Source: Thiohalophilus sp.
Lineage (GTDB): Bacteria > Pseudomonadota > Gammaproteobacteria > UBA6429 > Thiohalophilaceae
Assembly: GCF_034522235.1 (NCBI RefSeq)
Contig: NZ_JAXHLN010000003.1
Coordinates: 62,001-126,000, forward strand
Reading direction: 5' to 3'
Length of the DNA: 64,000 nucleotides
Of the stretch, positions 36,171 through 47,688 are shown in pieces. The notes beneath the pieces are model-generated. The model ran no database searches, was not told where the DNA came from, and saw nothing but the letters and a program-made list of their open reading frames with translations. Position 1 is the first letter of the stretch; each line of letters begins with the position of its first letter. Both the position numbers and the translations under genes were made by a program.

Positions 36171-37130
36171 ATGCCCTCTGAACAACGTCTTGTCTTCGCC
36201 GGCACCCCTCAGTTCGCCGCTATTTCGCTGCGAGCCCTGCTCGATGCCGGTCACGAGATTGCTGCGGTGTACACCCAGCCCGATCGCCCGGCCGGGCGCG
36301 GACGCAAGCTGCAACCGGGGCCGGTCAAGCGGCTGGCGCGGGAACACGGGATACCGGTCTGCCAGCCGGAGAATTTCAAATCCGACGCCGCCCTGGCCGA
36401 ACTGGCCGACTGGCAGGCGGAGCGGATGATCGTCGCCGCCTATGGACTGCTGCTGCCGCAACAGGTGCTCGACATTCCGGCCCACGGCTGCCTGAACATC
36501 CACGCCTCGCTGCTGCCGCGCTGGCGCGGCGCGGCGCCGATCCAGCGGGCCATTCTGGCCGGCGACAGCGAGACCGGCGTGACCATCATGCAGATGGACG
36601 CCGGACTGGATACCGGCGATATGCTGCTCAGGCTGCGCTGCCCGATTGCCCCGGATGAGACCGGCGGCAGTCTGCACGACAAGCTGGCCACGCTCGGTGG
36701 CAAGGCGATCGTGCAGGCGCTGGCCAGCCTCGACCAGCTTCAGCCCGAGCCTCAGGACGACAGTCAGGCGACCTATGCCCGCAAGCTGGACAAGGCCGAG
36801 GCCCGGATTGACTGGTACAAACCGGCCATCCAGCTGGCGCGCGAAGTGCACGCCTTCAACCCCTGGCCGGTGAGTCACACCCGGCTCGAGGGCGAGGCAT
36901 TGCGGATCTGGCAGGCCGGGGCGCGGGAAACACCCCCTGCCGCCTCTGACCAAACGCCTGGCACCGTAGTAAGCACTGACTCTGAGGGGATCGGTGTGGC
37001 CTGTGGGCAGGGCCTGTTACTGCTGCAACAGATCCAGCCGGCCGGCAGCAAGGCGATGAGCGCGGCTGCCTTCCTCAACGGCCGCCCCGGTCGGCTGCAG
37101 GTGGGCATGCGCCTGGGCGACACGCACTGA
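36171..37130 (+). CDS. fmt: Methionyl-tRNA formyltransferase
   Basis: 319-aa enzyme formylating initiator Met-tRNA with 10-formyl-THF. The N-terminal catalytic domain has LVFAGTPQFAAISLRALLDA, HASLLPRWRGAAPIQRAILA and MDAGLDTGDMLL. A C-terminal OB-like domain starts near ARIDWYKPAIQLAREVHAFN. Its TGA stop overlaps the rsmB ATG by one base (TGATG), showing translational coupling. Confidence 0.97.
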   Translation: MPSEQRLVFAGTPQFAAISLRALLDAGHEIAAVYTQPDRPAGRGRKLQPGPVKRLAREHGIPVCQPENFKSDAALAELADWQAERMIVAAYGLLLPQQVLDIPAHGCLNIHASLLPRWRGAAPIQRAILAGDSETGVTIMQMDAGLDTGDMLLRLRCPIAPDETGGSLHDKLATLGGKAIVQALASLDQLQPEPQDDSQATYARKLDKAEARIDWYKPAIQLAREVHAFNPWPVSHTRLEGEALRIWQAGARETPPAASDQTPGTVVSTDSEGIGVACGQGLLLLQQIQPAGSKAMSAAAFLNGRPGRLQVGMRLGDTH

Positions 37131-38422
37131 TGAACGTCCGCCTTGCCTGCCTGCGGGTGCTGCAGCAGATCGTCCAGCACGGTCAGAACCTGGATACGGC
37201 CCTGGAAGAGATCATCCCGCAGCTGGATCAGGCCCGCGATCAAGGGCTGTTGCAGCACCTCTGCTACGGGGTAATGCGCTGGTATCCGCAACTCGAATTT
37301 CTGCTCGGACAACTGCTGCACAAACCGCTGAAGAAAAAAGACGCCGATCTGCGTCTGCTGCTGTTGCTGGGACTGTATCAGTTACGTTTCAGCCGGATCC
37401 CGGCCCATGCGGCGGTGGGCGAGACCGTCGCCGTGACCCAAAGCCTCAACAAGGCCTGGGCGCGCGGCATGGTCAATGCGGTACTGCGCAATTATCAACG
37501 CCAGCAACCTCAACTCGAGACTAAACTGACGCAGGACGCCCCGGCTCGCACTGCCCATCCCGCCTGGCTGCTGACCCACCTGCAGCAGGCCTGGCCCGGG
37601 CAGTGGCCGGCGATCGTCGAGGCCAACAACACCCAGGCACCGATGAGCCTGCGGGTCAATCAGCGTCAGGTCTCCCGCGACACCTATATAAAGCGTCTGG
37701 CCGCGGCCGGGCTCGAAGCCCGTGCCGGCGACAGCGGCGTGATTCTCGCCGACCCCTGCCCGGTGGAACAGCTGCCCGGCTTTGCCGAGGGGCATATCTC
37801 GGTCCAGGATATCGCCGCTCAGCTGGCCGCGCCGCTGCTGGATCCCCAACCCGGCGAACGGATCCTCGATGCCTGCGCCGCACCCGGGGGCAAGACCGCG
37901 CATTTGCTCGAACAGCAGCCCGACGTACAGGAGCTGGTCGCCCTGGACATCGAGCCATCTCGCCTGCAGCGGATCGCACAGAACCTGACGCGGCAGAACC
38001 TGCACGCGACACTGCTGGAGGGCGATGCCGCCCGGCCACAGAGCTGGTGGGACGGCCGGCTTTTCGATCGCATCTTGCTCGATGCGCCGTGCAGCGCCAC
38101 CGGCGTCATTCGCCGCCATCCCGACATCAAACTGCACCGCCGTCAGAGTGATATCCCGACGCTGTGCGCCACACAACATGCTATGCTGTTAGCACTGTGG
38201 CCCCTGCTTAAACCGGGCGGCAGCCTGCTGTACGCCACCTGTTCGATCCTGCCGGAGGAAAATCGACAACAGGTGGAACATTTTCTGGCCGCCGTGGACA
38301 ATGCCCGGCACGATGCCCTGCCGACAGGCTGGGGACATGCTCAGTCGGCAGGGCAACAGATCTTGCCCGGCGAGGATGATATGGATGGTTTTTATTACGC
38401 ACGTCTGGTCAAGACAAGCTGA
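37130..38422 (+). CDS. rsmB: 16S rRNA m5C967 methyltransferase
   Basis: 430-aa SAM-dependent methyltransferase acting on C967 of 16S rRNA. It has a NusB-like N-terminal domain (about 1-140) and a Rossmann methyltransferase domain. The SAM site is LDACAAPGGKTAHLLE. The two catalytic cysteines are in DAPCSATGVIRRHPDI and YATCSILPEENRQQ. It overlaps fmt by 1 nt, and its 3' end overlaps the DUF4390 gene by 38 nt. Confidence 0.96.
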   Translation: MNVRLACLRVLQQIVQHGQNLDTALEEIIPQLDQARDQGLLQHLCYGVMRWYPQLEFLLGQLLHKPLKKKDADLRLLLLLGLYQLRFSRIPAHAAVGETVAVTQSLNKAWARGMVNAVLRNYQRQQPQLETKLTQDAPARTAHPAWLLTHLQQAWPGQWPAIVEANNTQAPMSLRVNQRQVSRDTYIKRLAAAGLEARAGDSGVILADPCPVEQLPGFAEGHISVQDIAAQLAAPLLDPQPGERILDACAAPGGKTAHLLEQQPDVQELVALDIEPSRLQRIAQNLTRQNLHATLLEGDAARPQSWWDGRLFDRILLDAPCSATGVIRRHPDIKLHRRQSDIPTLCATQHAMLLALWPLLKPGGSLLYATCSILPEENRQQVEHFLAAVDNARHDALPTGWGHAQSAGQQILPGEDDMDGFYYARLVKTS

Positions 38423-38996
38423 GACCGCAACACCGGAGCCCGTCCGCTGGCTGCGCTATCTGCTGCTCGTGACCGCTCTAGGCACTTCCAATCCCGCCGC
38501 AGCCGATAACGGTTTTGCAATCCGCTCGGCAGAGCTGACCCTGCGTGATATGGTCTATCACCTGGATGCCCGCATCGACTACCGCCTGTCGCGGGAAGCC
38601 GTCAATGCGGTCAAAAACGGGGTACCGCTGATCATCGCCCTCGATATCCGGGTGGATCGCAAGCGCGTCTGGTGGCTGGACAAGGAGCTGGCCACCCTGA
38701 CCCAGAACTACCTGCTGCTCTATCACGCGCTGACCGAAAAATACGTGATTCACAACCTCAACAGCGGTATTCAGGAAAACTACAGCAATCTGGACACCGC
38801 CCTCTGGTCGCTCGGTCAGGTCAATGACCTGCCCCTGATTGACGCCAACCTGCTGGAGCCGGGCGCCGAATACGGCATCGACCTGCGTGCCCGACTGGAT
38901 ATCGAATCCCTGCCGGCACCCATGCGACCACTGGCCTATATTTCAAGTGACTGGCAACTGCAAAGCGACTGGTACTCATGGTCATTGGCTCGCTGA
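38385..38996 (+). CDS. DUF4390 exported protein
   Basis: About 203-aa protein. The ATG at 38385, inside the rsmB 3' end, is preceded by GAGG and gives an N-terminus with a hydrophobic signal (VRWLRYLLLVTALGTSNPAA) before a mature FAIRSAELTLRDMVYHLDAR. This matches DUF4390, a family lying between rsmB and ntrY in many beta- and gammaproteobacteria. It is likely periplasmic and of unknown role, possibly linked to NtrY sensing. The frame is open to 38301, but those codons lie inside rsmB. It overlaps ntrY by 19 nt. Confidence 0.88.
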   Translation: MVFITHVWSRQAETATPEPVRWLRYLLLVTALGTSNPAAADNGFAIRSAELTLRDMVYHLDARIDYRLSREAVNAVKNGVPLIIALDIRVDRKRVWWLDKELATLTQNYLLLYHALTEKYVIHNLNSGIQENYSNLDTALWSLGQVNDLPLIDANLLEPGAEYGIDLRARLDIESLPAPMRPLAYISSDWQLQSDWYSWSLAR

Positions 38997-41227
38997 TTCG
39001 CAAGCTGTTCTCCGGCAGCGCACCGATCATTATTCTGTTCGCCCTGCTGCTGACCTCGCTCTATCTGATGAGCGGCGCTACGCACAACTCGGCGCTGTTC
39101 GGCGAGCTCTACTCGCTGATGCTTGGCGTCAATATTATCGCGATACTCTTGTTGCTGGTTCTGATCGGCAAAAGCCTGTGGCAACTGATACAGCAATACC
39201 GAAGGAAGGATACGGGTACCCGGCTTACCGCCCGCCTGGTCGTCATGTTTGTCATTCTCTCGGTCACGCCGGTGTCGGTGGTCTATTACTTCTCACTCGA
39301 CTTTATCAAGCGCGGCATCGACAGTTGGTTCGATGTGCGGGTCGAGAATGCATTGAACGATGCACTGGAACTGAGCCAGGCGTCACTGGGCGTGCGCATG
39401 CGCGAGTTACTGCGCGAGACCCAGAACCTGAGCAGTGAGCTGGTTAATACGCCCAACAACCTCGCCGCGCTGAAGCTGAATGAAATCCATCAAAGTACCG
39501 ACGCCTCCGAACTGACCCTGTTCTCGCGCAACGGCCGCATCATCGCCTCCAGCAACCTGGAGTCGACCCAGCTGTTGCCGGCCCGACTGGATGACACCAC
39601 CCTGCACATGCTGCGCCAGGGTAACGATGACATCGGCCTGGTCCCGATCAAGGACAGTGGCCTGCACTTTCGGGCCGCGGTGACCCTGCCCGGACCCGAT
39701 GCGGTCACCGAACCGCGCATCCTGCAGGCCCTGTTTCCGGTGAACGAGCGTATCAATACTCTGGCCGACAGCGTGCAGTCGGCGTTCGGCCAGTACCGGG
39801 AAGTGGCTTATCTGCGCACGCCACTGAAATACAGCTTTATTCTCACCCTCTCGCTGGTATTGCTGCTGAGTATTCTGGTCGCCATCTGGGCGGCCTTTTA
39901 TGCGGCGCGACGCATGGTGCAACCCATCTACGATCTGGTGGAGGGCACGCGCGAAGTGGCCGCCGGCAACTACGACAAACGGTTGCCCCTGCCCGGTAAG
40001 GATGAGCTCGGCTTTCTGGTTCGCTCGTTCAACGAGATGACCCACAAGATCGCCATTGCCCAGCAACAGGCCCAGCAAAGTCAACAGCAACTGGAAGCCC
40101 AGCACGCCTATCTGGAGGCGGTGCTCGCCAATCTCTCCTCCGGTGTGTTGACCCTGGATAACCAGCACACGCTGAATACCCACAACCTGGCTGCCAGCCA
40201 GATCCTGAATCTCGACCTGAGCCGTTATCAGGGCGCGCGACTGGATACGCTGGCCGACGCCGAACCCGCCACCCGGCAACTGGTCGACGCGATCGCCCAG
40301 TATCTCGATGCCGGCGAACAGGAATGGCAGGAGCAGGTTACCCTGTTCGGTCCCAACGGCCGCAAGGTGTTGATGTGTCGCGGCACCCCGCTGCCCGACA
40401 GCAGCGATCGCGAAAGCGGCAGTATTATCGTCTTCGACGACATTACCGCGCTGATTCAGGCCCAACGCAATGCGGCCTGGGGCGAAGTCGCCCGGCGCCT
40501 GGCCCATGAAATCAAAAATCCGTTAACCCCCATTCAGCTGGCTGCCGAACGCCTGCGTCACAAGTATCTGAAAACAATGCCGCAAGACGATGCCGACGTG
40601 CTGGACCGTTCCACCCACACCATCGTCCAGCAGGTCGAGGCGCTCAAGGAGATGGTCAAGGCGTTCTCCGACTATGCCCGTATGCCGGAGCTGCAACTGG
40701 AAACGCTGGATTTGAACACGATCATTGACGAAGTCCTCGATCTCTATCGCACCAGCAATAACCAGATCCGCTTCACCTTGAAGCTGGATCCCAGCATGCC
40801 GCGCATCGAAGCCGATGCCGGCCGCCTGCGTCAGGTGCTGCACAACCTGTTCAAAAACGCGCTGGAAGCGATGGACTATGCCAGGGGCTCCAGGCTTCGA
40901 GTCACCACGAAGTGCGCTCATGAGCAGAGCTGCCGCTATGTGGAACTGAAAATCGAGGACAGTGGCCCGGGCATCCCCGATCAGCTGTTTGATCAGTTAT
41001 TCGACCCTTATGTCACCACCAAACCCCGCGGCAGTGGTCTGGGGCTGGCCATTGTGAAAAAGATCGTCGAAGAGCACGGCGGCATGTTATGGGCGGAGAA
41101 CAGCCCCACAGGGGGTGCCACGATTATTATCCGCCTGCCGGTGGTTTCCTCCGGCGGTGAAATAAGCGATACAATGGAGCTTGACTCCGAACAATCGATT
41201 AACCGCGATGATGATGCAGCCGCCTGA
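38978..41227 (+). CDS. ntrY: NtrY-type membrane sensor histidine kinase
   Basis: 749-aa sensor. Three hydrophobic helices occur in the first ~105 residues and another near 285-310 (FILTLSLVLLLSILVAIWAA). A HAMP segment follows (RRMVQPIYDLVEGTREVAAG), then a PAS-like domain near HAYLEAVLANLSSGVLTLDN. The HisKA box is RRLAHEIKNPLTPIQLAAER and the ATPase motifs are DSGPGIPDQLFDQ and GSGLGLAIVKKIVEEHGG. It looks catalytically complete. Start ATG 38978 overlaps DUF4390 and its stop overlaps ntrX. NtrYX systems respond to nitrogen or redox/respiratory cues depending on the species. Confidence 0.95.
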   Translation: MVIGSLIRKLFSGSAPIIILFALLLTSLYLMSGATHNSALFGELYSLMLGVNIIAILLLLVLIGKSLWQLIQQYRRKDTGTRLTARLVVMFVILSVTPVSVVYYFSLDFIKRGIDSWFDVRVENALNDALELSQASLGVRMRELLRETQNLSSELVNTPNNLAALKLNEIHQSTDASELTLFSRNGRIIASSNLESTQLLPARLDDTTLHMLRQGNDDIGLVPIKDSGLHFRAAVTLPGPDAVTEPRILQALFPVNERINTLADSVQSAFGQYREVAYLRTPLKYSFILTLSLVLLLSILVAIWAAFYAARRMVQPIYDLVEGTREVAAGNYDKRLPLPGKDELGFLVRSFNEMTHKIAIAQQQAQQSQQQLEAQHAYLEAVLANLSSGVLTLDNQHTLNTHNLAASQILNLDLSRYQGARLDTLADAEPATRQLVDAIAQYLDAGEQEWQEQVTLFGPNGRKVLMCRGTPLPDSSDRESGSIIVFDDITALIQAQRNAAWGEVARRLAHEIKNPLTPIQLAAERLRHKYLKTMPQDDADVLDRSTHTIVQQVEALKEMVKAFSDYARMPELQLETLDLNTIIDEVLDLYRTSNNQIRFTLKLDPSMPRIEADAGRLRQVLHNLFKNALEAMDYARGSRLRVTTKCAHEQSCRYVELKIEDSGPGIPDQLFDQLFDPYVTTKPRGSGLGLAIVKKIVEEHGGMLWAENSPTGGATIIIRLPVVSSGGEISDTMELDSEQSINRDDDAAA

Positions 41228-42641
41228 ATCCGCCGCCCCTGATCCGACACAGCAGCCTGACACCTCGGCTGCCAGGCCCTATATTCTGGTCGTCGATGAC
41301 GAGCCGGATATTCGTCAGCTGTTGCGAGAGATCCTTGAGGATGAAGGCTATACTGTCGCGGTTGCCGAAAACGGCGAAGCCGCGCGCCAACAACACCGTC
41401 AACGCAGACCGGATCTGATTCTGCTGGATATCTGGATGCCGGACATCGATGGTATCACCCTGCTCAAGGAGTGGAAGGATGATAACCAACTTGGCACCCC
41501 GGTGATCATGATGTCCGGCCATGGCACGGTTGAAACCGCTGTCGAGGCCACCCGCCTGGGCGCTTATGACTTTATCGAAAAGCCGATCTCCCTGGCCAAG
41601 CTGTTATTGACCATCGAACACGCCCTGGAAACAGACAAACTGCAGCGCGAAAACCAGGGGCTGCGTCGGCACAGTCTGCTGGTGCACGAACCGATCGGCA
41701 AAAGCGCTGCCATGCAGACACTGCGGGATCAACTACGGCGCATCGCGGAACATGACAGCTGGGTATTAATGAGTGGCGAACCGGGCTGCGGGATTCATAT
41801 CGCCGCACGCTATCTACATGATGCCAGCAACCGGCGCGATCGCCCCTTTATCGACGTCAATGTCGCCGGTCTGAACCCCGATAATGCCGCGCACGAACTG
41901 TTCGGCTCTGAAAAGAACGGCCTGGTTCATTACGGCTTGCTGGAACAAGCCAGTGGCGGGACGCTGATGTTGTATGATATTGCCGAAATGGATTCGGCCA
42001 CCCAGGCCAAGCTCTATTCCGCCCTTGATGCACAGAGTTTTTATCGAACCGGCGGGACCCAACCCATCGAATTGCACGCGCGCATCATCGCAGCCACCCA
42101 CTACGATCTGGAACAGCGGGTGGCCGACGGCCTGTTCCGCAAAGATATGTTTTATCTGCTAAACGTGGTACCGGTGCGTATCCCCGCCTTACGCGAACAT
42201 CGTGAAGATGTCCCTGATTTGCTTAATTTCTTTACCAACCAGCTGGTCGACCTGGAAAAATTACCTTACCGCAAGTTCACAATGGCGGCCCAGAATCGAC
42301 TACGCAACTACGACTGGCCGGGTAACCTGCGCGAGTTGACCAACCTGATTCAGCGACTTCTTATTGTCGGCTCGGGCCACGAGATCGATGTCGATGAGAT
42401 TGACGCCACCCTGGGCGAAGGCGACACAACAACTAACAAACGTGAGGTTGAGGTCAATTATGACCTACCACTTCGCGAAGCACGTGAACAGTTCGAACGT
42501 GATTACCTGGAGTATCAGTTACGCAAAGCACATGGCAGTGTCGGCAAGGTAGCCCGGGCGGTCGGGCTGGAACGTACCCATCTATATCGCAAACTGCGTG
42601 CACTGGGGATTGATCCAAAAAATATCACTCATGATGGGTAA
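41208..42641 (+). CDS. ntrX: NtrX-type response regulator with degenerate AAA+ domain
   Basis: About 477-aa regulator starting at one of three ATGs (41208, 41211, 41214) inside the ntrY 3' end. The receiver domain is intact (ILVVDDEPDIRQLL, phospho-Asp in LILLDIWMPDIDG, Lys in DFIEKP). The central AAA+ domain is degraded. The Walker A reads GEPGCGIHI with no Lys. The GAFTGA loop is absent between LFGSEKNG and GLLEQ. Walker B is TLMLYDI instead of the usual TLFLDEI, and sensor I reads AATH rather than AATN. The C-terminal Fis-type helix-turn-helix is intact (HGSVGKVARAVGLERTHLYR). It should therefore be phosphorylated and bind DNA, but not hydrolyse ATP or open sigma-54 promoters. Confidence 0.93.
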   Translation: MMMQPPESAAPDPTQQPDTSAARPYILVVDDEPDIRQLLREILEDEGYTVAVAENGEAARQQHRQRRPDLILLDIWMPDIDGITLLKEWKDDNQLGTPVIMMSGHGTVETAVEATRLGAYDFIEKPISLAKLLLTIEHALETDKLQRENQGLRRHSLLVHEPIGKSAAMQTLRDQLRRIAEHDSWVLMSGEPGCGIHIAARYLHDASNRRDRPFIDVNVAGLNPDNAAHELFGSEKNGLVHYGLLEQASGGTLMLYDIAEMDSATQAKLYSALDAQSFYRTGGTQPIELHARIIAATHYDLEQRVADGLFRKDMFYLLNVVPVRIPALREHREDVPDLLNFFTNQLVDLEKLPYRKFTMAAQNRLRNYDWPGNLRELTNLIQRLLIVGSGHEIDVDEIDATLGEGDTTTNKREVEVNYDLPLREAREQFERDYLEYQLRKAHGSVGKVARAVGLERTHLYRKLRALGIDPKNITHDG

Positions 42642-42704: not shown

Positions 42705-44078
42705 ATGAAAATCATCATCCTCGGGGCCGGACAGGTGGGCAGTTCCCTGGCAGAAAATCTTGCCAGTGAAGCCAACGATATCACCCTGATCGATCAGCGC
42801 GAAGAGGTATTGCAGGGCCTGCAGGACCGGCTGGATCTGCGTACCGTGGTCGGCCACGCCTCCTATCCCGAAGTGTTGCAGCGCGCCGGCGCGGATGATG
42901 CCGACATGCTGATTGCCGTGACCGACAGTGATGAAACCAACATGATCGCCTGTCAGATCGCCTATACGATCTTCCATACGCCGACCAAAATCGCCCGGGT
43001 CCGGGCCCTGGAATACCTGAAACACAAGAATCTGTTCAGTCCGACAGCCTTGCCCATCGATGTGCTGATCAGCCCCGAACAGTTGATCACCAATTATGTA
43101 CAAAGCCTGATCAACCATCCCGGCGCCCTGCAAGTCCTCGACTTTGCGGACGGGCTGGTGCAACTGGTCGGCGTTCGCGCCTATTACGGCGGCCCGCTGG
43201 TCGGCCATGAACTGCGAACCCTGCGCAAACACATGCCCGCTATCGAGGCACGTGTCGCCGCCATCTACCGCCGTGGCCGACCGATTATCCCCGAAGGCCA
43301 CACGGTTATCGAGGCCGACGACGAAGTCTTCTTCATTGCCGCCAGCAAGAATATCCGCAAGGTCATGAGTGAACTGCGCCGCCTGGACAAACCCTACAAG
43401 CGCATCATGATTGTCGGCGGCGGCAATATCGGCAAGCGGGTAGCCCAGGCACTGGAACGCAATTACCAGGTCAAGCTGATCGATCACAATCCCGAGCGCA
43501 CCCGAATAATCTCCAATGAATTATCCCGAACCATGGTGCTATGCGGCGATGCCGCCGACGAGGAATTACTGCTGGAAGAGAACATCGATAAAACCGATGT
43601 CTTCTGTGCCCTGACCAATGATGATGAGGCCAATATCCTCTCATCCATGCTGGCCAAACGCCTTGGCGCGCGTAAGGCGATTACGCTAATCAACCGTGCC
43701 GCCTATGTGGATCTGATCCAGAGCGGCGAAATCGACATCGCCCTGTCACCGCAACAGTCTACCATTGGCAGTCTGCTGGCCCATGTACGTCGTGGTGACG
43801 TGGTCAAGGTCCATTCCCTGCGCCGTGGCGCGGCCGAGGCGATCGAGGCGATCGCCCATGGCGATATCAACACCTCGAAAGTCGTTGGTCGTAAAATCGA
43901 AGACCTGAAGCTTCCGCCCGGCACCACCATCGGCGCCATCGTCCGCAACAAGGAAGTCATCATTGCCCACCATGACACACTGATCGAATCCGATGACCAC
44001 GTCATTATGTTCCTGGTGGACAAAGCCCGTATCCCCGATGTCGAGCGCATGTTCCAGGTCAGCATCACATTCATTTAA
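42705..44078 (+). CDS. trkA: Trk potassium uptake regulator TrkA
   Basis: 457-aa cytoplasmic NAD(H)-binding regulator of TrkH. It is two repeats of RCK-N plus RCK-C: the first nucleotide site is [20 protein letters not shown] and the second is [20 protein letters not shown]. The C-terminal TrkA-C domain ends near [20 protein letters not shown]. It is 63 bp after ntrX on the same strand. The ntrX-trkA-trkH order is conserved in this bacterial group. Confidence 0.97.
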
Positions 44079-44234: not shown

Positions 44235-44243
44235 TTTTTGATT

Positions 44244-45698
44244 ATGCATCTGCTTGTTATACAACGCATCCTGGGTATTCTGCTGATGATCTTCAGCCTG
44301 GCAATGCTGCCACCGCTGGTGACCTCGGTGATCTATCTTGATGTAACCTTCGAGGCCTTCTTTTACAGTTTTGCGGTGATCCTCATCAGTGGCATTGTGC
44401 TCTGGCTGCCGGTCAAAAACCGCAAACAGGAATTGCGGACACGCGACGGTTTCCTGGTTGTCGCCTTATTCTGGACCACCCTGAGTCTGTTTGGTGCCAT
44501 TCCTTTCATTCTCGCACCTCAACCGGATATCTCCATCACGGACGCGATTTTCGAGTCCTTCTCTGGCCTGACAACCACCGGCTCGACCATTCTCACCGGC
44601 ATCGACACCTTGCCTGAATCCATTTTGTTCTATCGACAGCAGCTGCAATGGCTGGGCGGGATGGGGATCATCGTACTGGCGGTGGCCATCATGCCTATGC
44701 TTGGGATCGGCGGCATGCAGTTGTATCGCGCCGAAACCCCCGGCCCGGTCAAGGACACCAAGATCACCCCCCGCATCACCGAAACCGCCAAGGCACTGTG
44801 GTATATCTATTTGAGCCTGACTGTACTCTGTGCCGCAGGCTACTGGCTGGCGGGTATGAATCTGTTCGATGCGATTGGCCACAGTTTTTCCACCGTCGCA
44901 ATCGGTGGTTTTTCCACCCACGATGCCAGCATGGGCTATTTTATCGACAAGCCCATGATTGAGGTGGTGGCAATCATTTTCATGTTCTTATCCGGTATTA
45001 ACTTCGCCCTGCATTTTGCCGCCTGGCGCTATCGCTCAGTAGCATCTTACTTTGTTGATCCCGAATTCAGGGCTTATGTTCTTATCCTGCTAGTAGTTGC
45101 ATTGGTTACTGTATTTTACCTGTATTACGAGGGCGTCTTCGACGGCATCGAACGCAGCCTGCTGCATGGGATATTCCAGACCGTCTCCATCGGCACCACC
45201 ACCGGCTTCACCACCCACCAATATCATCTGTGGCCCGGCTTTTTGCCGGTGCTGCTGTTGTTCGTCAGTTTTGTCGGCGCCTGTGCCTGGTCCACCGGCG
45301 GCGGTATGAAGGTGATTCGCTTTCTGCTGCTAATCAAGCAGGGCTCACGCGAAATTATGCGGATTATTCATCCCAACGCCGTAATCCCCATCAAAATCGG
45401 CGGCAAACCTGTCTCCCCCCGGATCATTGATTCCATCTGGGGTTTCTTCTCCGCCTATGTGGCCGTGTTTGCTATTATGCTGCTGATCCTGATGATGACC
45501 GGACTGGATCAGATCACCGCCTTTTCCGCCGTCGCCGCCACCATGAACAACCTTGGTCCGGGGCTGGGTGAGGTGGGTAGCAACTATGCCTCTCTAAGCG
45601 ATAGCGCCAAATGGATTCTCTGTTTTGCCATGCTGCTCGGTCGCCTCGAAATCTTCACCCTGCTTGTTCTACTGACTCCCGCCTTCTGGCGCCGCTAA
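44244..45698 (+). CDS. trkH: Trk potassium transporter membrane subunit TrkH
   Basis: 484-aa K+ channel-like transporter with four M1-P-M2 repeats. Filter-loop sequences are visible in order: SGLTTTGSTILTG, STVAIGGFSTHDA, IGTTTGFTTHQYH and MNNLGPGLGEVGS, each with the key Gly. I use ATG 44244 (MHLLVIQRILGILLMI); a TTG lies two codons upstream. No clear Shine-Dalgarno is visible because a CCTCGTC array precedes it. It works with TrkA in osmotic and ionic balance. Confidence 0.96.
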   Translation: MHLLVIQRILGILLMIFSLAMLPPLVTSVIYLDVTFEAFFYSFAVILISGIVLWLPVKNRKQELRTRDGFLVVALFWTTLSLFGAIPFILAPQPDISITDAIFESFSGLTTTGSTILTGIDTLPESILFYRQQLQWLGGMGIIVLAVAIMPMLGIGGMQLYRAETPGPVKDTKITPRITETAKALWYIYLSLTVLCAAGYWLAGMNLFDAIGHSFSTVAIGGFSTHDASMGYFIDKPMIEVVAIIFMFLSGINFALHFAAWRYRSVASYFVDPEFRAYVLILLVVALVTVFYLYYEGVFDGIERSLLHGIFQTVSIGTTTGFTTHQYHLWPGFLPVLLLFVSFVGACAWSTGGGMKVIRFLLLIKQGSREIMRIIHPNAVIPIKIGGKPVSPRIIDSIWGFFSAYVAVFAIMLLILMMTGLDQITAFSAVAATMNNLGPGLGEVGSNYASLSDSAKWILCFAMLLGRLEIFTLLVLLTPAFWRR

Positions 45699-45814: not shown

Positions 45815-46129
45815 ATGTCCATGATTAACAACCTCGAAAAAATGCTCACCGACGGCCAGGACAGTCTGTTGCTGCGGTTCGGGCTTGGCCAGGCCTACCT
45901 GAAGGAACAACAACCCGCCAACGCTATCCCACATCTACAGCGCGCCCTGCAGTTCGATGGTGACTACTCGGCCGCATGGAAACTGCTGGGCCAGGCCCAT
46001 GCCGACAGCGGCGATCACCAGCAGGCGATCGCCACCTATGAAAAGGGCATCGAAGTGGCGGAAAAGAAAGGCGACATGCAAGCCGCCAAGGAAATGCGGG
46101 TTTTTCTCAAGCGACTGCTGAAAGAGTAG
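45815..46129 (+). CDS. Small TPR protein
   Basis: 104-aa protein made of about two and a half tetratricopeptide repeats: LLLRFGLGQAYLKEQQPANA, then SAAWKLLGQAHADSGDHQQA and a following helix AIATYEKGIEVAEKKGD. It has no signal peptide, so it is probably cytoplasmic and mediates protein-protein contact. Partner unknown. It is the last gene with core-like base composition before the AT-richer accessory island. Confidence 0.85.
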   Translation: MSMINNLEKMLTDGQDSLLLRFGLGQAYLKEQQPANAIPHLQRALQFDGDYSAAWKLLGQAHADSGDHQQAIATYEKGIEVAEKKGDMQAAKEMRVFLKRLLKE

Positions 46130-46184: not shown

Positions 46185-46262
46185 ATTCAACGCCCACATA
46201 AAAGGCGCGAGCTTGCGAGCGTCCGTCGACCGAAGGGAGCGAAGTTAATGTGATTGTTAAGT
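46185..46262 (-). other. attC-like recombination site 1 (after the FRG gene)
   Basis: Read on the minus strand, this 78-bp block opens with ACTTAAC (fits RYYYAAC, and contains the TAA stop of the FRG gene) and closes with GTTGAAT (fits GTTRRRY). An imperfect palindrome lies between. GTTGAATGTCTGCTCCTGGCCG continues past the end, similar to the boundary at 48539. Length and arrangement match integron attC sites. The end boxes are only partly complementary. Confidence 0.55.
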
Positions 46263-47078
46263 TCCATTCTTCGACTTAATCTTCTCGCATATTATTTCGA
46301 TCTCGTCATTATGAGGATACAGTGCCGTTTTCGGAATAGCATGAAAATCTTTATTCCAGAAGCCTTTTTTCGGTATTTCAAACTTGGCTATTAGTCTCCT
46401 ACCAAAATCGAGAAACGGCTGCTTCCTTTTAACACGGGATGGAAATGAGCCCAGCAAGTATCCTTCTTGGAAATGAGGACGCAATGCTTCAGCTGGGCAT
46501 GCACTTAGCAACCTTACGTTTAACAACTCTTCCTCTGTTGAGTAGGAAATGGTTCCGTTCGGGTATGGAAAGGCAAAAACAAATATATTGGCAGTATCGA
46601 CTGCATCATTTAGAGCAAAGGAAGCTGCCACGCGAAGTGAATGAGTAAAATCCAACAAAGGAGTTTGGCAAACCTCATAGTGCTGAAGAATCGACCATGG
46701 TAATTCAGGGAATTTCTTCAACTTATTGATGCTATCAATATCTAACTCATCTAGTTTTATAAGCAGGTCATTAGTGCACTTTTCTAGTTTATTGTATCTT
46801 TCTTCTAGCTCTCTTGTAGACAACGAGCGACCCGGTGATCTGAAAAGCGTGGGATAGAATGAACTTGAGCCAGAATTTAGCTTGTAGTCTTTGAGTTGCC
46901 CGCGGAAAAATAGACTATAATCCGGATTGTGATTTGCAATTTTTGCTACAGCTTGGACCAATTCTCTAAAGCTAAAGATTTTGGCGGGAATACTTTCACG
47001 AATTTCCTTGTTCGTGAATTGTACCCCACTAACAAACGACAGGTGACACCATAGTTTTGTGTTGCCGAGATTTCTCAA
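46257..47078 (-). CDS. FRG-domain protein (gene-cassette-like)
   Basis: 273-aa protein with the FRG signature: SLFFRGQ near residue 54, then SILQHYEVCQTPLLDFTHSL and RVAASFAL near residues 130-155. The domain is named for its FRG motif, occurs in many mobile-element and prophage proteins, and has no settled biochemistry. The start is TTG 47078 with AGGAG at 5-nt spacing; there is no ATG in the N-terminal region. Composition is AT-richer than the housekeeping genes. It is flanked by attC-like sites, with its stop codon inside one of them. A defence or toxin-type role is possible but unproven. Confidence 0.8.
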   Translation of the reverse strand: MRNLGNTKLWCHLSFVSGVQFTNKEIRESIPAKIFSFRELVQAVAKIANHNPDYSLFFRGQLKDYKLNSGSSSFYPTLFRSPGRSLSTRELEERYNKLEKCTNDLLIKLDELDIDSINKLKKFPELPWSILQHYEVCQTPLLDFTHSLRVAASFALNDAVDTANIFVFAFPYPNGTISYSTEEELLNVRLLSACPAEALRPHFQEGYLLGSFPSRVKRKQPFLDFGRRLIAKFEIPKKGFWNKDFHAIPKTALYPHNDEIEIICEKIKSKNGT

Positions 47079-47096
47079 CTTATCTCCTGATTAAGC

Positions 47097-47165
47097 ACTT
47101 AACGACTAAGCTGAGGGGCGCATGCCGCATCGCGGCGCGCGCACCAGACAAGCGCGTTGTTATGC
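47097..47165 (-). other. attC-like recombination site 2 (after the MltR-like gene)
   Basis: 69-bp minus-strand block. It opens with GCATAAC and closes with GTTAAGT (fits GTTRRRY), with a GC-rich inverted segment (GCGCGCGCCGCGATGCGGCA) in the middle. It begins 11 bp after the stop of the MltR-like gene and ends 19 bp before the FRG start. Confidence 0.6.
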
Positions 47166-47175
47166 GTAATTTTTA

Positions 47176-47688
47176 CTATGAACGCATTTTGTGAGACCAC
47201 TCTTTAATATCTCTTTGTTCATTTTTAATAAGTCGAACTCGCCACAGGAAATCAGAAAGTAATATTGCCACCTCAGCACTAAACCGCGCTTTTGCATCAG
47301 AAGTTTCTTTATGCTCCTCTGGGCCTAACCACGGCAAGTTATTACACAGGTCTATGATTTTTTGTGTTTTAAAACTTACACCTTTCCAACTATGGCCGAA
47401 TTCATTACGTATTTTTCTTATTATATTTAGTTCGCTAAATTCATTATCTTGTATAAGACCAAGAGAATATGCTGCTTTAATGCGTGCTGAGTAGGTGCCG
47501 ATCGGGGCGTTAAAGCCAAATAGCAGATCGTCTGTTTCTTTTACCTCAGCGAAAAATGCTTTTAGCATTTCACCTAACCTCTCATCGAGATATGCTCCTG
47601 CCGTTAGTACGGCACCCCGATCACTCTCGCCGTTAAATTCTGCTAAGAATTCTGATAGTTCCTTTATCTCAGGCTCTGTTTTTTTCAT
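47176..47688 (-). CDS. MltR-like (mannitol repressor family) protein
   Basis: 170-aa all-helical protein containing RGAVLTAGAYLDERLGEMLK, LFGFNAPIGTYSARIKAAYS and IIRKIRNEFGHSW. These are the hallmarks of the MltR family, named for the E. coli mannitol operon repressor but frequent as a stand-alone accessory gene. No mannitol genes are here. It lies in a cassette-like array followed by an attC-like site, so a sugar-regulation role is doubtful. Start ATG 47688. Confidence 0.8.
   Translation of the reverse strand: MKKTEPEIKELSEFLAEFNGESDRGAVLTAGAYLDERLGEMLKAFFAEVKETDDLLFGFNAPIGTYSARIKAAYSLGLIQDNEFSELNIIRKIRNEFGHSWKGVSFKTQKIIDLCNNLPWLGPEEHKETSDAKARFSAEVAILLSDFLWRVRLIKNEQRDIKEWSHKMRS

Follow-up and report, generated by a model that had tools for sequence, protein, structure and literature searches.

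A degenerate AAA+ domain in an NtrX-type response regulator of Thiohalophilus and its occurrence among related bacteria

The ntrX gene and the catalytic motifs of its AAA+ domain

In a 64,000-nucleotide stretch of the genome of a Thiohalophilus species (contig NZ_JAXHLN010000003.1, positions 62,001 to 126,000; assembly G000, 3.06 Mb), referred to here as the window, the gene ntrX encodes a response regulator of 477 amino acids with a degenerate AAA+ domain, as determined from its open reading frame (ORF) and from profile searches. The gene occupies positions 41208–42641 of the window, lies on the plus strand, as do all features given below unless stated otherwise, and forms part of the cluster rsmB-DUF4390(plrP)-ntrY-ntrX-trkA-trkH. 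Its frame opens with an ATG at 41208, carries no internal stops and closes with a stop codon ending at 42641; a longer start, a TTG at 41181, is possible.

NtrX is composed of a receiver, an AAA+ core of the sigma-54-activator type, a lid and a Fis-type helix-turn-helix (HTH). The receiver (41283–41615, residues 26–136; PF00072, 118 bits) contains the phospho-acceptor D74 together with S103, K125 and the acidic pocket, i.e., the full set of residues expected of response regulators that are controlled by phosphorylation. The AAA+ core (41694–42191, residues 163–328) is recognized by PF00158 with 138.7 bits as well as by a structural model and structure matches, the lid (42192–42440, residues 329–411) by PF25601, and the HTH (42483–42602, residues 426–465) by PF02954. 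Both the receiver and the HTH exceed the Pfam cut-off, in agreement with an earlier reading of the window from its letters alone (the sequence-only reading), which had described these two domains as intact; the ORF and the strings GEPGCGIHI, TLMLYDI and AATH, which it had quoted together with the absence of GAFTGA, are likewise present as it gave them.

Assignment to the NtrX lineage is based on the best-scoring NCBIfam family, NtrX NF051870 (480.2 bits versus 333 bits for ntrC TIGR01818), and on the adjoining NtrY gene with DUF4390/PlrP and rsmB genes upstream. Since the curated cut-off of NF051870 is 600 bits, the protein is not filed as the equivalog “nitrogen assimilation response regulator NtrX”, and a role in nitrogen metabolism is not claimed for it. 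The nearest named relative is the NtrX of Thiohalophilus thiocyanatoxydans (L060; 91% identity). Of the features by which a bacterial enhancer-binding protein (bEBP) is recognized, the window NtrX possesses the AAA+ fold of the sigma-54-activator type, and it lacks GAFTGA and the catalytic residues; the PlrR-like form known from Betaproteobacteria, which is devoid of AAA+, is not what is found here, given that core and lid are both present.

The alterations of the AAA+ core were located by alignment. The Walker A motif (41775–41798) has degenerated to GEPGCGIH, with Ile196 (codon 41793–41795) at the Lys position, and the Walker B motif (41961–41981) to TLMLYDI, with Tyr256 (codon 41973–41975) at the position of the Asp and Asp257 at that of the Glu. 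Thus, the replacement of the Walker A Lys reported by the sequence-only reading is borne out, and of the two Walker B acids that it considered lost, the first is indeed gone, while the second is only conservatively changed. The L1 loop (41907–41933; SEKNGLVHY; ELFGSEKNGLVHYGLLEQ) is short and without GAFTGA. A further loss, which that reading had overlooked, concerns the second Arg finger, which acts in trans; the position equivalent to R299 of NtrC1 and R168 of PspF, residues that touch the gamma-phosphate in trans (PMC7175178), is taken by Leu317 (42156–42158) in the register read from the alignment. The first Arg finger position, Arg311 (42138–42140), the sensor II Arg375 in the lid and the P-loop glycines are retained.

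The His of the sensor I string AATH had also been counted among the defects. This candidate was rejected, as His is common across NtrX (62 of 205 aligned NtrX sequences, with Asn in 10) and occurs in intact bEBPs (L007, L104 and most of L106–L121).

All three forward frames of ntrX are free of G-x4-G-K and GAFTGA-like motifs, so that an alternative P-loop and a hidden frameshift were rejected, and the functional Walker A motif elsewhere that would have spoken against the sequence-only reading was, hence, not encountered. The sole match to a hydrophobic-D-[DE] pattern in the gene is the acidic pocket of the receiver. Sequencing error as the cause of the motif loss was rejected, because the same four altered residues occur in a second genome of the genus; they are found in L031 (91% identity to the window protein) and in L060.

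General drift of such genes in this genome does not account for the loss, because ten further bEBP-type genes (L002–L011) all contain the Walker A Lys, the Walker B Asp-Glu pair, both Arg fingers and sensor II. In a control set of 30 bEBP loci, composed of these ten and 20 further non-NtrX loci, the Walker B, finger and sensor II residues are present in 30 of 30 and the Lys in 29, the remaining row ending before Walker A; GAFTGA or a near variant is found in 29 of the 30. The ten intact proteins, together with the retained Arg311, would also allow NtrX to enter mixed rings as an inactive subunit, damping or redirecting an intact activator such as NtrC. However, NtrX has a kinase and an HTH of its own, shares only 31–36% identity with these paralogues and lacks GAFTGA, and we regard such a role as very improbable.

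Distribution and descent of the altered motifs

Of 40 genomes from the family of the window organism, 38 yield an NtrX match at E ≤ 1e-90, and 30 of these, the window included, were used for residue counts. None of the 30 rows carries the Walker A Lys (Ile 10, Leu 9, Met 7, Thr 4) or the Walker B Asp (His 8, Tyr 5, Ser 5, Arg 5, Gly 3, Asn 2, Val 1, Cys 1), and all 30 lack Arg at the second finger (Gln 18, Leu 12) and retain Arg311.

Class-wide, a match at E ≤ 1e-80 is present in 236 of 370 sampled genomes, part of which were read. The alignment of NtrX across relatives, which the sequence-only reading had proposed as a check, was made with 205 rows. Apart from five DUF4390-adjacent rows added by hand, these were required to score 280 bits or more against the window protein, to align over more than 400 residues of the query and to carry an ERxxLxRKL-like HTH; closeness and HTH conservation within this set are, thus, partly by construction. 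Omitting L001, a duplicate of the window sequence, and two rows without AAA+ leaves 202 rows, in which the Lys position is occupied by Lys in 141, Arg in 26 and other residues in 35. The Walker B Asp is present in 75 of the 202 and an Asp or Glu as the second acid in 170; Arg is found at position 311 in 169, at the second finger in 55 and at sensor II in 169. Where neither Lys nor Arg is present (35 rows), the Walker B Asp is invariably missing as well. No variation was seen in the Asp, Ser and Lys of the receiver (204 of 204 rows), and GAFTGA is found in none of the 205. All six catalytic residues are retained in 12 of 12 rows from Alphaproteobacteria and in 21 of the 163 rows outside these and the family of the window, a number that includes L001 and the two rows without AAA+.

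The sequence-only reading had treated the lesion as that of a single odd protein. Across the aligned sequences, it marks instead one step, common to the family, in an erosion of the NtrX AAA+ domain that extends through the class. In the literature covered, which was partial and included few subscription papers, no description of an NtrX without the Walker A Lys was found.

Genomes of the class that gave no NtrX match at E ≤ 1e-80 were searched in part (80 genomes, with 53 more lying outside this search), and still more eroded forms were encountered among them. DUF4390 is present in 11 of the 80, and the corresponding neighbourhoods, several of which end at contig ends, were retrieved. Two of them (L293 and L296, sharing one family code) encode a regulator made up of receiver and HTH only, the open frames being 234 and 240 codons long and the DUF4390 gene adjacent and upstream; the AAA+ regions of L298, L299 and L302 are shortened and eroded, pieces of NtrX are present in L294 and L297, and no NtrX match was obtained in the neighbourhoods of L292, L295, L300 and L301.

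The descent of these states was examined on a tree of NtrX rows only (163 rows thinned at 80% identity, motif columns excluded), a quick reconstruction in which support is given by the Shimodaira–Hasegawa-like approximate likelihood ratio test (SH-aLRT) alone and long-branch joins are flagged. The six alphaproteobacterial rows on the tree carry the intact set, and so do most early branches of the class, with Asn for the Walker B Asp in L249 and L253. From one 144-row branch (SH-aLRT 100) onward, the trans Arg is largely missing, some of the rows there having Arg. At a minimum, 27 changes, i.e., losses or regains, are required for the Walker B Asp, 19 for the trans Arg and 13 for the Lys (4 if Arg is equated with Lys); as all of these counts are below those of shuffled labels, the catalytic states are clustered by descent. 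The window protein falls inside the NtrX tree in a starred set of eight rows (SH-aLRT 97), itself within a 21-row set (SH-aLRT 95) that comprises its own family and a second one (L131, L132) and contains no Lys. Outside this set, both Lys and Arg are missing in three other rows (L269, L298, L302), which sit on long branches. The order of losses proposed below is that suggested by the positions of the states on this one quick tree.

Selection, predicted fold and genetic setting

Residue constraint was assessed over the 250 columns of the AAA+/lid alignment in a degenerate set of 32 rows. There, the Lys and Asp columns lie at the 81st and 92nd entropy percentile, while 46 columns are invariant, which indicates that constraint is gone from catalysis and not from the fold; in 68 comparison rows both columns lie at the 6th percentile, a value that follows by construction since these rows were chosen for the residues in question. 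The ratio of non-synonymous to synonymous substitution rates (dN/dS) in the AAA+ core is 0.150 between the window and L031 (dS 0.43), 0.020–0.221 for degenerate pairs (11 computable of 12) and 0.013–0.156 for intact pairs (11 of 13), all of these figures being rough in view of many high dS values. The degenerate AAA+ domain is under purifying selection, with mild relaxation at most.

These values also bear on whether ntrX might be a decaying pseudogene or the product of an assembly or sequencing error. That several motifs are broken together in one protein would fit such an origin; against it stand the open frame, an identical set of residues in the 91%-identical protein of a second species, the family-wide loss, dN/dS well under 1, the intact receiver and HTH and the retained NtrY, DUF4390 and trkAH neighbours. 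The pseudogene reading was rejected on the core dN/dS values, and decay or error can be set aside with near certainty.

The AlphaFold model, computed from a 27-row alignment, has a mean predicted local distance difference test score (pLDDT) of 81.6, with ten-residue blocks of residues 161–400 between 81 and 96; its domain arrangement is unsure because the predicted template modelling score (pTM) is 0.53. The best full-length structure matches are to Brucella NtrX (5m7n/o/p; Z about 34) with a root-mean-square deviation (rmsd) of 13–20 that reflects differently placed domains. The modelled AAA+ domain alone matches FleQ and NtrC1 with Z of 28–30 and an rmsd of about 2 Å, the FleQ AAA+ domain 5exs being matched with Z 29.9 and an rmsd of 2.1 over 247 residues. 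The AAA+ fold is, thus, predicted to be intact, although a fold shows no activity and alignment with intact relatives favours such a model.

The cognate kinase gene ntrY (38978–41227) overlaps ntrX by 20 nucleotides, and its product is complete, as the sequence-only reading had held, with NtrY_N, HAMP, PAS, HisKA and HATPase_c domains, a HEIKN motif and N and G boxes. Upstream lie rsmB, encoding a 16S rRNA methyltransferase (37130–38422; PF01189, PF22458, PF01029) and a conserved neighbour of this system, and the DUF4390 gene (38301–38996; PF14334, E 3.1e-49), a homologue of plrP. As listed, the latter overlaps both rsmB and ntrY, and its real start may be nearer 38400. PlrP has been proposed as a periplasmic third component of NtrYX systems in Beta- and Gammaproteobacteria, where it would restrain the phosphatase activity of the kinase PlrS, and rsmB and plrP are often located 5′ of ntrYX in these classes (PMC13001219), an arrangement shared by the window cluster. 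Downstream of ntrX follow trkA (42705–44078; PF02254, PF02080) and trkH, encoding a K+ transport subunit (44238–45698; PF02386); 3′ of trkH, at 45815–46129 and 46257–47688, are a small tetratricopeptide repeat protein and two minus-strand ORFs.

Among loci with sufficient flank, an NtrY-like gene precedes ntrX in 93 of 104 and a TrkA-like gene follows it in 89 of 113; upstream genes of the DUF4390 type are present at 13 of 30 loci, the 17 misses comprising ten from Alphaproteobacteria, six of an orphan-NtrX group and L067. In L077, L079 and L083 (metagenome-assembled genomes of Lysobacterales/Xanthomonadales/Gammaproteobacteria), no NtrY-like gene lies directly upstream and NtrX appears to be an orphan, preceded by a putative DsbA-type thiol oxidoreductase gene, so named from its sequence, and followed by trkA- and trkH-like genes; the Walker A Lys is replaced by Arg and the Walker B acids are absent (IPKL, IPNL). 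NtrY was likewise scored as absent at L080, L082 and L100.

Between 37800 and 46300, the best promoter-like site (10/12; plus strand, 41257–41285) lies inside ntrX, and scans returned 6 sigma-70 and 8 terminator sites against 5.0 and 7.0 expected. For the sigma-54 promoter pattern, the whole window contains two one-mismatch matches, both outside the cluster, where 2.93 would be expected by chance on average, and no conserved site was seen by eye between ntrX and trkA in 22 loci and the window.

A proposed phosphorylation-switched regulator with a pseudo-ATPase scaffold

Several known systems invite comparison. In Bordetella PlrSR/PlrP, the regulator PlrR, a betaproteobacterial NtrX, is encoded in the same gene order (rsmB-plrP-plrS/ntrY-plrR/ntrX, with trkAH downstream; PMC13001219); the HEIKN motif of the kinase is common to both systems, and neither contains a sigma-54-type ATPase. 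However, betaproteobacterial NtrX lacks AAA+ entirely (PMC13001219), whereas the window NtrX retains a presumably non-catalytic AAA+ domain; L293 and L296 resemble the betaproteobacterial form. NtrX of Alphaproteobacteria, represented by the Brucella structures, has the same domains as the window protein, with 41–44% identity to Brucella NtrX in structural alignments, and likewise lacks GAFTGA (for Caulobacter, PMC10274813), but differs in its full catalytic set, from the Walker A Lys and Walker B Asp-Glu to the two Arg fingers and sensor II, which is preserved in all 12 rows aligned here. GAFTGA is also lost or altered in Rhodobacter capsulatus NtrC and HupR, TyrR and VpsR, which are described as sigma-70-dependent or not sigma-54-dependent, the first three working at sigma-70 promoters (PMC3162934, PMC10274813); these belong to lineages other than NtrX, and the likeness drawn here concerns GAFTGA and sigma factor dependence. 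Within the Gammaproteobacteria, NtrX of Thioalkalivibrio thiocyanoxidans is listed without GAFTGA (PMC5744179, Table 2), a likeness that covers this motif only.

The window NtrX is probably a phosphorylation-switched, sigma-54-independent regulator with an AAA+ domain that serves as a pseudo-ATPase scaffold, acting at sigma-70-type promoters. Independence from sigma-54 follows from the missing GAFTGA (PMC3162934). Loss of ATP hydrolysis is well supported by the aligned residues, and little or no ATP is likely to be bound; action at sigma-70 promoters is plausible by analogy with the regulators named above, among them R. capsulatus NtrC and also VpsR, which lacks GAFTGA and does not require ATP (PMC10274813), and a role of the AAA+ domain in oligomer formation may be inferred. 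The proposal of the sequence-only reading that the regulator no longer uses ATP, therefore, holds for hydrolysis, with the residues lost in 30 of 30 family rows as opposed to the intact control bEBPs, and is less sure for nucleotide use as such, as P-loop glycines, Arg311 and the sensor II Arg are mostly conserved.

According to this proposal, NtrY, the activity of which is probably modulated by the DUF4390/PlrP protein, would set the phosphorylation of Asp74, which in turn would alter a dimer or oligomer formed by receiver and AAA+ domain and, thereby, how far apart the two Fis-type HTHs sit on DNA and how tightly they bind it. NtrX would then activate or repress ordinary sigma-70-type promoters through binding and without ATP hydrolysis, the AAA+ domain and lid acting as a folded scaffold that links receiver to HTH and aids oligomerization.

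A number of observations weigh against this interpretation. Lys is in the majority across the 202 NtrX rows, and the degenerate rows largely keep the P-loop glycines (G190 in 28 of 32, G193 in 32, G195 in 26), Arg311 (32 of 32) and the sensor II Arg375 (29 of 32). The consensus promoter scan gave no excess over shuffles. The genome encodes sigma-54 (rpoN match PF04552, 235 bits), and its loss at the genome level was, hence, rejected as the cause of the NtrX lesions. An independent-pairs test of Lys loss against Asp loss (10 pairs on starred branches) revealed no significant association (median p 0.625), so that an ordered pathway of losses is not statistically shown. Finally, Caulobacter NtrC has no GAFTGA, yet depends on both its Walker A Lys and the Asp of Walker B (PMC10274813), which indicates that loss of GAFTGA alone does not release the ATPase from selection.

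The persistence of the P-loop glycines, Arg311 and the sensor II Arg makes residual binding of a nucleotide or other ligand the main rival. In such a case, the pocket would have lost hydrolysis and still bind ATP, ADP or a cyclic dinucleotide, tuning oligomerization as a sensor module. Conservation of these residues while the catalytic columns drift fits this possibility, as do the crystallization of Brucella NtrX with ATP and with ADP (according to the PDB titles), the requirement of R. capsulatus NtrC for ATP binding but not hydrolysis (PMC10274813), and the binding of cyclic di-GMP by VpsR, FleQ and VfmH (PMC10274813, PMC10714721). On the other hand, the Walker A Lys is the main phosphate ligand, and 26 of the 30 family rows have Ile, Leu or Met in its place and the other four Thr; Gly195 is also lost in 6 of the 32 degenerate rows. 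We consider a retained ligand sensor unlikely, though worth keeping in view beside the preferred reading of a scaffold switched by phosphorylation.

In the simplest history, GAFTGA would have been lost before the split of alpha- and gammaproteobacterial NtrX, followed in the class of the window by decay of the trans Arg finger, of the Walker B Asp and, in some lineages, of the Walker A Lys; absence of AAA+, as in the two sampled relatives with a DUF4390 neighbour, would be the end stage. A more far-reaching and quite tentative interpretation, which we would not favour at present, is that NtrX represents the stepwise dismantling of a motor in place, beginning with sigma-54 coupling, continuing with repeated loss of the trans Arg and Walker B Asp and, in some lineages, of the P-loop Lys, and ending with the AAA+ domain itself. 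In the clade of the window, the ATP pocket would then be filled by other side chains (Ile, Leu or Met at the Lys position, mostly His, Tyr, Ser or Arg at that of the Asp), fixing the domain in one nucleotide-like state, with switching left to phosphorylation alone.

For the group of the window NtrX, the label of a sigma-54 activator, as a PF00158 match would suggest, would be misleading. The lineage constitutes a natural series within one regulator, from intact through broken to absent ATPase, in which it can be tested directly why a response regulator retains its AAA+ domain after the ATPase has been lost.

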